A stretch of 64,000 nt of DNA from Zeus faber (Eukaryota; Chordata; Actinopteri; Zeiformes; Zeidae): NCBI GenBank assembly GCA_960531495.1, contig OY482846.1, positions 50,654,057 to 50,718,056 on the forward strand, written 5' to 3'. This document shows positions 25,901 to 31,900 of this stretch, piece by piece. The notes below the pieces were generated by a model that did not search any database, had not been told where the DNA came from, and worked only from the letters and a program-made list of their open reading frames with translations. The translations under genes and the position numbers were made by a program. Positions within the stretch are counted from its first letter, which is position 1, and each line of letters opens with the position of its first letter.

Positions 25901-28900
25901 TCAGATGTGCAAGAGTTTCTGACGAACCCCAATCCCCCCCACCCCCCCACCCCCACCCCCCCCCCCCCCCCCCCCCCCCCCAAAAAAAAAAAGATAACCA
26001 CTTTGGCTGCGGAGCTGGAGGCCGTGAGATCAGAGCGAGGTGAGGCAGCTGGAGTTCAGAGCTGTACAGAGGAGGTGGGGGAGCTCCTCTCTAGAGTCAG
26101 CGCTCTGACCCAGGAGAAGAACCAACAGCAGGAGATCCTGGAGGCTCTGACCAAGGAGAAGAACCAACAGCAGGAGATCCTGGAGGCTCTGACCCAGGAG
26201 AAGAACCAACAGCAGGAGATCCTGGAGGCTCTGACCCAGGAGAAGAACCAACAGCAGGAGATCCTGGAGGCTCTGACCCAGGAGAAGAACCAACAGCAGG
26301 AGATCCTGGAGGCTCTGAGGCAGGAGAAGAATGAGCTCAGAGCTCAGCTGGAGGAGCAGATGGAAACGGTACAAAGCCGTAATGTTTGCCGTGCTTTGTG
26401 ATATGTAAAGATTGATCATGCCAGAATTGTATACAATACTGACATAGACCGATCAGCCACAACATTAATACCACCACTAATTACACTAATATTGTGTAGC
26501 TCCCCCTTGTGCCGCCAAAACAGCCGTGACCCGTCAAGGCACAGACACCACCTCTGTGGTATCTGGCACCAAGACGTTAGCAGCAGATCCTTTTAAAGAG
26601 GACCTATTATGCTCCTCTTCACCAAACTAAAGATGCAATAGACAACTTTTCAACTTTCCCCTTTGTGCTTCCAAGTGGTATTTTTGTTTTAGACGCTTTA
26701 CGTTTTCATCAGAGCGTAGCTCCGTGAAGTTATGCACTAAAAGAAAACATGTTTCCTTGTTTAGATTAGTCATTTGGCAGCTTTCGACCTTGTTTGGAAG
26801 CTCTGATTCTCCACTTTCAAACGATGTGGGGGGGGGAAGAAAACTTGAAAGCCATCAAATGACCCTGAAGTACGCGGTGGGTCACATACACTATACCAGC
26901 CACGCACCCTGACCGTAAAATAACACGGGTCCTCGCTTATCGACCAATTCACTTAACGACCTTGCCCTAGGAACGGAACTCAGTCGTTACGTAAGAAGTA
27001 CCTCTACGACGATCTGACGACTTTGAAAGTTGTGTAGTGTGTCCCTGGCATTCCAGGACTAAAAGGATCTGCTGCTAACGTCTTGGTGCCAGATACCACA
27101 GGACACCTTCAGGGTCTTGTGGAGTCCATGCCTCCACGGGTCACCGCTGTTTTTTGACGACACGAAGGGAGCTACACAATATTAGTGTTATTAGTGGTGG
27201 TTTAATGTTGTGACTGATCGGTGTATAGCTGCTACTAAAATACATCTTAAATCCATGACTTTTCCTTCATGTATTTGGGACTTGCTGGAAGTACAGTTTT
27301 GTGTTTGTCTTCAGATCCACGGTGACATCCAGCCTCTGGGCTTTGAGCTGCAGTTGGTGAAGGAGGAACAGAATCTGTTTCAGGTCAAGCGTCTTGAGGA
27401 ACAGTTAGAGAGCATTACAAAGCAGCACAGCCAGCTTAACATTGAATTTAAGGATAGTGCAGAGATCCTGGAGGCTCTGAGGCAAGAGAAGAACCAGCAG
27501 CAGGTGATCCTGGAGACTGTGACCCAGGAGAAGAACCAGCAGCAGGAGATCCTGGAGGCTCTGACCCAGGAGAAGAACCAGCAGCAGGAGATCCTGGAGG
27601 CTCTGACCCAGGAGAAGAACCAGCAGCAGGAGATCCTGGAGGCTCTGACCCAGGAGAAGAACCAGCAGCAGGAGATCCTGGAGGCTCTGACCCAGGAGAA
27701 GAACCAGCAGCAGGAGGTTCTGAGGGAGGAGAAGAACCAACAACAGGAGATCCTGGAGGCTCTGACCCAAGAGAAGAACCAGCTCACAGCTCAGCTGGAG
27801 GAGCACCTTGAGCATCCCAGAGCATCGTACTCCAGACTCGAGGACTCTTCTCTCCAGCTTCAGGTGCAGTTTTTAGTCTTCAGATAATGTTAGATACGAT
27901 TTATTTCCCTTTAACCTGTGCTTTCAGCAGGATCTGTACAACATAACGTATTTATACCATTGCATTTAAGTTAATCAATCCATCTTTATTAATCGTCAAA
28001 AACACTAGAACAACTTTGGTGAATGGCGTGTTTTACATAAACGGGGGGTGGTAGCTCAGGCGGTAGAGCTGGTGGTCTAGTGATCTAAAGGTTGCTGGTT
28101 GGATCCCAGGCTCCTCCTGCTAGCATGCTGTAGTGTCCTTGAGCAAGACACTTAACCCCTAATTGCTCCTGATGGCTGCGTCCGTCGGTGTTTGAATAAT
28201 TGTAAGTCGCTTTGGATAAAAGCGTCTGCTAAATGAAAATGTAATGTAAACATCAAAACTATTCTGTAATGCTAGGTAAAAAGATGTTACTCTCCCTACA
28301 GGAGGCCATGAGCAGATTTCAGCTCCTGGCTTGTGGTGTTAGGGTTGTGGCTGATCGGTGTATAGCTGCTACTGATGAATCTTAAATCCATGACACTTCC
28401 TTCGTGTGTTTGGGACTTGCTGGAAGTACAGATTTGTGTTTGTCTTCAGGTCCACGGTGACATCCAGCCTCTAGGCTTTGAGCTGCAGTCTGTGAAGGAG
28501 GAACAGAATCTGTTTCAGGTCAAGTGTCTTGAGGAACAGTTAGAGAGCATTACAAAGCGGCACAGCCAGCTCAACATTGAATTTAAGGATAGTGCAGAGA
28601 TCCTGGAGGCTCTGAGGCAAGAGAAGAACCAGCAGCAGGAGGTCCTGGAGACTCTGACCCAGGAGAATAACAAGCAGCAGGAGATTGTGGAGACTCTGAC
28701 CCAAGAGAAGAACCATCAGCAGGAGATCCTGGAGGCTCTGAACCAAGAGAAGAACCATCAACAGGAGGTCCTGGAGGCTCTGACCCAGGAGAGGATCCAA
28801 CAGCAGGAGATCTTGGAGGTTCTGCGGGAGGAGAGGAACCAGCAGCAAGAGATCCTGGAGGCTCTGACCCAGGAGAATAACAAGCAGCAGGAGACTGTGG

Positions 28901-31900
28901 AGAGTCTTACCCAGGAGAAGATCAAGCAGCAGGAGATTGTGGAGACTCTGACCCAAGAGAAGAACCATCAGCAGGAGATCCTGGAGGCTCTGAACCAAGA
29001 GAAGAACCTGCAGCAGGAGGTCCTGGAGGCTCTGACCCAGGAGAGGATCCAACAGCAGGAGATCCTGGAGGATCTGAGGGAGAAGAGGAACCTGCAGCAA
29101 GAGATCCTTGAGGCTCTGACCCAGGAGAAGAACCAGCCGCAGGAGATCCTGGAGACTCTGAGGCAGGAGAAGAACCAGCAGAAAGAGATCCTGGAGACTC
29201 TCACCCAGGAGAATAACAAGCAGCAAAAGACTGTAGAGACTCTGACCCAGGAGAAGATCCAGCAGCAGGAGGTCCTGGAGGCTCTGACCCAGGAGAAGTT
29301 CCAACAGCAGGAGATCCTGGAGGTTCTGCGGGAGGAGAGGAACCAGCAGCAAGAGATCCTGGAGGCTCTCACCCAGGAGAATAACAAGCAGCAAAAGACT
29401 GTAGAGACTCTGACCCAGGAGAAGATCCAGCAGCAGGAGGTCCTGGAGGCTCTGACCCAGGAGAAGTTCCAACAGCAGGAGATCCTGGAGGTTCTGCGGG
29501 AGGAGAGGAACCAGCAGCCGGAGATCCTGGAGGCTCTGACCCAGGAGAATAACAAGCAGCAGGAGACTGTGGAGACTCTGACCCAGGAGAAGATCAAGCA
29601 GCAGGAGATTGTGGAGACTCTGACCCAAGAGAACAACCAGCAGCAGGAGGTCCTGGAGGCTCTGACCCAGGAGAAGATCCAACAGCAGGAGATCCTGGAG
29701 GACCTGAGGGAGGAGAGGAACCAGCAGCAAGAGATCCTGGAGGCTCTGACCCAGGAGAATAACAAGCAGCAGGAGACTGTGGAGACTCTGACCCAAGAGA
29801 AGAACCATCAACAGGAGATCCTGGAGGCGCTGACTCAAGAGAAGAACCAGCAGCAGGAGATCCTGGAGGCTCTGACCCAGGAGAAGATCCAACAGCAGGA
29901 GATCCTGGAGGTTCTGAGGGAGGAGAGGAACCAGCAGCATGAGATCCTGGAGGCTCTGACCCAGGAAAAGAACAAGCAGCAGGAGACTGTGGAGACTCTG
30001 ACCCAGGAGAAGAACCAGCAGCAGGAGATCCAGGGGGCTCTGAGGGAGGAGAGGAACCAGCAGCAAGAGATCCTGGAGGCTCTGAGGGAGGAGAGGAACC
30101 AGCAGCAAGAGATCCTGGAGGCTCTGACCCAAGAGAAGAATCAACAGCAGGAGTTACAGGAGGCTCTGAGGTTCGAGAAGAACCAGCAGCAGAAGATCCT
30201 GGAAGCTCTGACCCAGGAGAAGAACCAGCTCACAGCTCAGCTGGAGGAGCGCCCAGAGCATCCCAGAACATCGGACTCCAGACTCCAGGACTCGACTCTG
30301 CAGCTTCAGGTGCAGTTTTTTGTCTTCAGATAATGTTAGATACGATTTATTTCCCGTTAACTTGTGCTTTCAGTAAGATCCGTACAACAGATTGGATTTA
30401 TACCATTGCATTAAAGACAGTTTATCAATCAATCAATCTTTAATTATCATCAAAAACATTAGAACAACTTTGGTGACCTGTGGAATGGAACGTTTTAGAT
30501 TTTGGTATTTGTTATTGCAATACTATATTTTTCTGTAATGCAAAGTAAAAAGATGTTACCCTCCCTACAGGAGGCCTTGAGCAGGTTCCAGCTCCTGGCT
30601 GAGGACTGCTCCCGTTGCAGCGGTAGCGTGGATCCTCTAGCCGAGGTCTCAGCGCTACCACAAGCCACCATGCACCAGCTCCTGCTGTCGCTTCCCAAAC
30701 ACATAGTCAAAGTGTACAGCGCTGTGTGCTTGCGGACCATGCACAACCTGCAGACGCTCGACAAGACCGCTGTAAGTGCTCTGTTTGTCCTGTGTCCAGA
30801 CATTCTTTCAGCATTTAATTTTTCTTTTTGGATATTTATTTTGTCATATTACTGGTAAACTATCCATCAGTAATGGTGATACATATTTCTTTTAATATAA
30901 TGTTTTTAGGAATATGGAAAAATATCTTCAGGACTTTCATTTCATTAATACACACTTTTTACCTTTTTCCAGTGGAAATGTAAAATGTCAATATAAAGTA
31001 TGTAGATAACTCCTACGACAGTTATTCCTCCACTGGTCTGCTGTTTTGGTTCATCTTCCGACAGTTTTACCTACTGTACATAGTTAAACTGCGTTGTTAT
31101 CCTCTATCCAGATGCTGCTGCGGAGCGACGCTCTGGACGTCCGGCGGAATTTCCAGGATCTGCTGCTGGGGGAGCTGGCCGTGTTCGAGGAGCGGCGGCT
31201 GCAGGACCTGCTGCTCTGCAGAGCCCAGAACTCCGGCAGCTCCATGGGAGGAGAGAACCTGCACGTGGTGTGGGAACGCAGGCTGGCGGAGCTGCTGGAG
31301 CAGAGAGAGCACCACCTCCAGGTGAACACCTCCAGACAAATTAAATTCACCACAACACTCTGAGACTGTAGTACAAGGACAAAAATGCTCTTTTTACAGT
31401 TACCGTATTTTCACGACCATAAGGCGCACCGTACTAAAAGGCGCAGTCTCAGTTATGTGTGCCATTACTGTATTTAACACACACATAAGGCGCACCGGAT
31501 TATTGGGCGCGGGTTTTATATACCGGTACATATCCTCTACTACGTTTAAATACCTCTACTGCGTATTTAAAAATAGAGCGGGAGCAAAACTGAGTATGTT
31601 TGTGCTTTATTCATGTATTTATTACAAAGTATTAATCAATCCCATCGAAGTCATCATCCTCTGTTTCTGAATTAAACAGCTGCGCTAAATCAGACATGCC
31701 GGTTTCCCCTTCTTCGCTGTCAGAGTCACTTTCCGTGCCGTGCGGCTCCTCGGAAATGATGCCGGCTTTTGCGAAAGCTCGAACAACAGTGCCAGCAGAC
31801 ACGTTAGCCCAAGCATCTACAATCCATCCACAAACTGTGGCGTAACTTGCCCGGCGCTGCCTTCCACTTTTCGTGAAACTGTGGTCTCCGTCGGTCATCC

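Follow-up and report, generated by a model that had tools for sequence, protein, structure and literature searches.

The locus described here lies in a window of 64,000 nucleotides of Zeus faber DNA (C2:50654057-50718056; the genome has 803 Mb in 153 contigs). Judged by its motor exon and its C-terminus, the gene concerned is CENP-E (kinesin-7), and three of its consecutive exons, called X1, X2 and X3 below, carry tandem arrays of a 42-bp unit encoding 14 residues (Table 1). The motor exon (17356-17550) has CENP-E structures as its top two matches in the PDB (1t5c, 1.1e-16; 6m4i, 6.1e-16), with the next family following only at 5.6e-10. The last exon of the model ends in CKTQ, a C-terminal CaaX box, and that of human CENP-E is Cys-Lys-Thr-Gln (PMC10630089). 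Both findings agree with an earlier note on this DNA, which had named the gene CENP-E.

Tandem Repeats Finder, a check which that note had proposed, recovered period-42 arrays in all three exons: 5.5 copies with 97% matches at 26102-26331, 7.9 copies with 87% matches at 27462-27783, and 38.9 copies with 80% matches (score 1978) at 28597-30229. Counted in frame, as the 14-residue unit and its variants, X1 holds five full units and a leading part unit, X2 eight and X3 39. The earlier figure of about 6, 8 and 39 copies in three consecutive exons was thus off by at most one unit from the approximately 5, 8 and 39 found here, and its outer coordinates, 25994 and 30309, coincide with the exon limits; the exon numbers given then (28-30) become 27, 28 and 29 in the present gene model. 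All three exons lie between AG and GT, with phase 0 at either end.

Table 1. Positions of the repeat-bearing exons, the gene model and related features (window positions, except for the orphan array)
Feature	Position	Strand	Remarks
CENP-E gene model	10921..41614	+	two parts: 10921 (ATG) to 34373, and 36093 to 41614 (stop following CKTQ)
Exon 25	24610..24816	+	two adjacent degenerate units; likely seed of the minisatellite
X1, exon 27	25994..26368	+	5 full 42-bp units and a part unit; inclusion in mRNA doubtful
X2, exon 28	27315..27863	+	8 units, one of 33 bp (11 residues), at which the heptad register slips
X3, exon 29	28450..30309	+	39 units; exon of 1,860 nt
Duplicated segment, copy 1 (holds X2)	27195..28331	+	with parts of introns and the beginning of the following exon; piecewise alignments, direct repeats D14-D16
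Duplicated segment, copy 2 (holds X3)	about 28335-30600		counterpart of copy 1
First exon after the arrays	30571..30771	+	predicted coiled coil drops; taken as putative start of the kinetochore-targeting tail
Orphan array, same 42-bp unit	C10:33871834-33872482 (L021:7835-8483)		15.5 copies

Exon chains were built from splice-site weights, phase, and anchor peptides picked by eye; the weights were simple ones and are a crude guide to splicing. The 5' part of the model, 33 exons in all, is free of stops, and could not be joined in phase to the tail part, because the exon 34234-34373 lacks a GT donor in the phase required by the next exon at 36093. This mismatch may reflect a base-level assembly error, an unusual splice site or a wrong model. 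Some 610 residues follow X3, this out-of-phase join among them, and the exon 36093-36257 within this tail gave no match in the PDB. At the first exon after the arrays the predicted coiled-coil score per 100 residues falls from 1.60 to 1.11. A GGSG-PVQ motif resembling the corona-targeting loop of human (PLTCGGGSGIVQNT; PMC7617963) occurs at 39766, though not in the frame that is open and agrees with the splice sites of its exon.

The repeat as coding sequence

Five of the six frames of the consensus unit are free of stops, so that an open frame by itself proves little, and the stops gained by the individual units are more telling. Over 532 codons of X3 new stops number zero in the coding frame, against 2, 8, 1, 6 and 5 in the five others. 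The comparison took 38 units of X3, 6 of X2 and 5 of X1; in the short, young arrays of X1 and X2 several other frames are stop-free as well, and stop counts there do not discriminate. Across the 52 in-frame units of the CENP-E arrays none of the 728 codons is a stop, although 174 sit one transition away from one.

A second control is provided by an array of the same unit outside the gene. Searching the genome with four units gave 20 matches, 15 of them in the CENP-E gene and 5 in the orphan array on C10, whose 15 units carry a TAG stop four times and have lost 1 bp once. Counted as units bearing either lesion, the orphan has 5 of 15 and CENP-E 0 of 52 (Fisher P 3e-4, or 0.009 if only three of the lesions are independent); since the units of an array are related by descent, these P values are only indicative. 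Diversity by codon position is raised at the third position in X3 (0.170, 0.165 and 0.221) and flat in the orphan (0.168, 0.175 and 0.163), and pN/pS is 0.56 in X3 (bootstrap range 0.49-0.67) against 0.78 in the orphan (0.58-1.19). Both measures used 14 of the 15 orphan units, the 41-bp unit being dropped, and 38 of the 39 units of X3; stop codons were skipped for pN/pS. We conclude from the stop-free coding frame, set against the other frames and against the orphan array, that the repeat is translated as protein. Constraint on its residues is present but weak, as the two bootstrap ranges overlap.

The orphan lacks CENP-E flanks and is adjoined by repetitive DNA on both sides. On the left it is joined directly to a shortened copy of a dispersed repeat, which continues beyond the junction in 3 of 5 related copies checked (L028, L029 and L030); in the other two (L027 and L031) the junction was not found by the pattern used. 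A second CENP-E gene or retrocopy on C10 was considered and rejected: the 5' flank of X2 matches only X2 and X3 in the genome, exon 30 is present once, and dispersed repeats lie on both sides of the array. With its broken frames, the orphan copy serves as a natural control for a coding repeat.

Whether all of the array reaches the mRNA is a separate matter. The acceptor of X1 scores -7.3, the lowest in the model, and its donor -2.5, the second lowest after -3.7 at 41459, and with the weakest acceptor of the gene model X1 may be skipped. At 25934-25993, the place expected of the X1 acceptor and its polypyrimidine tract, a 48-base stretch consisting almost entirely of C is followed by a run of A. 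In X2 a single unit change at 27504 creates an internal donor, CAG/GTGATC, which scores 2.9 against 0.2 for the end donor. Compared with ten other rod exons, X1-X3 had splice-enhancer hexamers at approximately threefold density, but the hexamer list contains words of the unit itself, which biases the comparison, and the idea was not used.

Coiled-coil geometry and turnover of the array

Each unit comprises one hydrophobic and one polar heptad. The earlier statement that 14 residues make two heptads held: a single predicted register runs through the 38 full units of X3 examined. In these units the core positions a and d are occupied by L or V at position 3 (95%) and by L at position 6 (100%), whereas positions 10 (K, R or N) and 13 (almost always Q) are never hydrophobic, so that every second core layer would be polar. 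The coiled-coil prediction proposed by the earlier note was made with our own implementation of COILS, in which GCN4 scored positive and the motor domain negative. It scores the array as coiled coil, with P>0.5 for 100% of X3 residues unweighted and 84% weighted, and COILS-type scores likewise predict a long coiled-coil stalk between motor and tail. AlphaFold2, run on 12 units as a monomer with an alignment of five further window segments, returned one helix over residues 2-167 (mean pLDDT 95.4, pTM 0.43). According to this prediction the array stretch is helical; the model is a monomer, which speaks for a helix and not for a dimer, and the stretch is presumed to dimerise. A search of the PDB at 0.01 gave no relative of X3. 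X3 matches UBA_2 (34.3 bits) and MC7 (31.6) above the whole-protein cut-off of Pfam, and X1 matches UBA_2 narrowly above it (23.5 against 23); no single stretch passes in either exon, so these matches are taken as sums of weak repeat matches.

The unit has a likely source within the gene itself. Exon 25 contains two adjacent degenerate units with profile scores of 18.8 and 16.8, compared with 3.4 for the next best stretch and a maximum of 9.7 in 200 shuffles, and 159 nt of this exon are 81% identical to the start of X1. The two degenerate units and the 81% identity make exon 25 the likely seed of the minisatellite, the direction of origin being our reading of the sequence.

By their alignments X2 and X3 are a tandem duplication that includes parts of the introns, with 95% identity over 147 bp of 5' exon flank, 89% over 79 bp of 3' exon flank and 84-90% in the intron parts. 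Units within the arrays differ in their degree of homogenisation: mean identity is 0.99 in X1, 0.95 in X2 and 0.82 in X3 (4, 6 and 38 units, respectively, which also entered the block analysis), and the lowest value, that of X3, suggests an older or less homogenised array. A regular higher-order repeat in X3 was rejected. Of 12 lags tried on all 39 units, lags 4, 5 and 6 showed only slight enrichment, their observed values being equalled or exceeded in 86, 38 and 261, respectively, of 2000 shuffles of the units. Scored blocks were found at lag 5 (404 nt, 93%) and lag 4 (268 nt, 97%), as well as at lags 26, 16, 6 and 21, and their occurrence at so many lags points to block duplications and not to a regular array. 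The claim that copy number can change while frame and heptad register are both preserved stood in part: the frame is kept in all 52 units, and the register is shifted by the 11-residue unit of X2.

Other repetitive or mobile sequences were seen in and near the gene. A 31-bp tandem array of 7.2 copies occupies 11266-11485, within what the model takes as the first intron of CENP-E, and a transposase-like frame lies on the minus strand of a further CENP-E intron at 31954-32760 (Pfam HTH_Tnp_Tc5, 6.1e-13; BrkDBD, 1.1e-8). Downstream of the gene there are tandem arrays of a 53-bp unit (42639-43389, 14.3 copies) and of a 52-bp unit (43642-44877, 23.8 copies, 98% matches).

Stalk length, alternative readings and known systems

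The modelled protein has approximately 2,655 residues, with a stalk of ~1,705 (from residue 341 to the end of X3). For this estimate the X1 acceptor at 25883 and the X2 internal donor at 27503, which the unconstrained exon chain had used, were both swapped for the full exons; the figures rest on the exon model, in which a missed phase-0 exon would escape notice. The three arrays supply ~736 residues, or 43% of the stalk, leaving ~969 without them, and a stalk lacking X1 would have ~1,580. A fully helical coil rises by 0.1485 nm per residue, which gives the arrays a span of ~109 nm if they are fully helical. According to the earlier note, mammalian CENP-E also has a long rod, but is not known to contain a tandem array of this kind. 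The stalk of human CENP-E covers residues 341-2054 (1,714 residues), followed by a tail to 2701, and that of Xenopus residues 342-2214 (1,873 residues; PMC8905165). With a modelled length so near the human one, the array seems to be part of a normal-length stalk and to add no visible extension. The earlier proposal that the array adds roughly 100 nm of rod therefore survives for the span of the array, and not for added length.

We suggest, with a little better than an even chance of being right, that an array grown in the coiled coil of CENP-E acts as a spacer supplying ~730 residues (~43%) of the stalk. The minisatellite would have grown inside the gene, probably from two units already present in its coiled coil, and would now encode this portion immediately before the tail. 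Each 42-bp unit would insert one hydrophobic and one polar heptad into a long coiled coil, and gain or loss of units in blocks would keep the frame and mostly keep the register, so that sequence turns over while the helix and overall stalk length persist. This spacer reading builds on observations, namely the array and its frame, the identity of the gene, the periodicity, the duplication of blocks and of exons, and the absence of stops against two controls; it also supposes that all three exons enter the mRNA and that weak selection keeps helix and length, the keeping of length being a hypothesis drawn from one gene in one genome. It appears to fit the array best in the light of what is known of molecular-spacer coiled coils, whose sequence diverges while length is kept, although the human/zebrafish table of the same source also lists changed lengths (PMC5082667). 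The CENP-E dimer is described as flexible and extended up to 230 nm, and the length and flexibility of its stalk are held to be important in the alignment of chromosomes (review, PMC7475649). Adaptive sites in mammalian CENP-E are placed in the kinetochore-binding domain and not in the stalk (PMC11230421).

Several points weigh against a spacer. The overlapping pN/pS ranges of X3 and the orphan array mean weak constraint on residues, array units are related, which makes the lesion counts non-independent, and weighted COILS covers 84% and not all of X3. The two repeats of X2 and X3 and the splice sites of X1 cast doubt on inclusion in the mRNA. The match to human length comes down to one value, taken from a model anchored by hand in which one join is out of phase, and the evidence as a whole is DNA from one species and one genome assembly.

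The array may instead be a tolerated passenger, the product of mutational drift in a stalk for which any helical sequence would do as filler, with copy number and length unselected and the human match a coincidence. This is possible, though we think it rather unlikely. Besides the weak residue constraint, the homogenisation of units in X1 and X2 speaks of ongoing turnover, and other long coiled coils do vary between human and zebrafish (the NuMA coil, 1,487 against 1,774; PMC5082667). Against it stand the complete lack of frame-breaking changes in 52 units, a stalk total that the arrays bring close to human length, and the failure of artificially shortened or exchanged CENP-E stalks to rescue alignment, with the reservation that such constructs may be defective in other ways (PMC7475649).

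It is quite improbable, in our estimate, that the array is partly silent, with X3 and some of X2 coded and X1, perhaps together with part of X2, absent from the mRNA. The low scores of both X1 splice sites, the stronger internal donor of X2 and the choices of the unconstrained chain would agree with this, and each of the three exons can be skipped in frame; yet X1 and X2 are open in frame, X2 shares its acceptor and end donor type with X3, and the splice weights are crude. An assembly artefact, in which the array was collapsed or inflated and the copy numbers are wrong, is most improbable: runs of identical units in X1 and X2, the C-run before X1 and the frame problems of the tail, within 34220-34380 and 39340-39900, could hint at one, but each unit of X3 differs from the next one (0 identical in 38 pairs at lag 1), the flanks differ and the 1,860-nt frame is intact. 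In the genome search, made on one assembly, no second haplotype was seen.

An extension of the spacer reading, in which selection keeps the stalk near 1,700 residues but leaves its sequence unconstrained, the length now being provided in this lineage by a hypermutable minisatellite, is in our view unlikely. If it were true, kinetochore tether length would be a fast-tunable heritable trait, changing by ~2 nm per unit, and could respond to changes in centromere or spindle size. Results from stalks shortened by engineering are difficult to read (PMC7475649), and a natural stalk of which two fifths are uniform repeat would offer an alternative. Copy-number alleles, which are a possibility only, would give graded tether lengths and with them a test of length against sequence.

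Our literature search, outside which most subscription journals lay, turned up no description of a CENP-E stalk built from a minisatellite. The separate ingredients are already known: variable heptad repeats (PMC4046983), teleost exon amplification (PMC3484663) and coding variable number tandem repeats (VNTRs; PMC12776774). Like human and Xenopus CENP-E, as described in PMC8905165 and PMC7475649, the protein modelled here has a motor, a long stalk of similar length, a tail and a CaaX end; those stalks are described as discontinuous coiled coils, and it is by this description that a stalk with 43% of its modelled length in one tandem unit is set apart. In chicken BG genes, too, a variable number of heptad repeats gives a coiled coil of variable length, and the reference list of that paper names size polymorphism arising from heptad number, but the BG exons are many and small, with 7 residues each, whereas here a 42-bp minisatellite lies within exons of a mitotic motor (PMC4046983). 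Teleost piccolo b is a similar case of a coding repeat amplified in fish, there explained by unequal crossover; its repeats are whole zinc-finger exons (8-16), unlike the heptad minisatellite of CENP-E (PMC3484663). PRDM9 (PMC8925151) and exonic VNTRs (PMC12776774) share in-frame tandem units, block duplication and homogenisation with the present array, whose unit is distinct in suiting the geometry of a coiled coil and in adding to its length.

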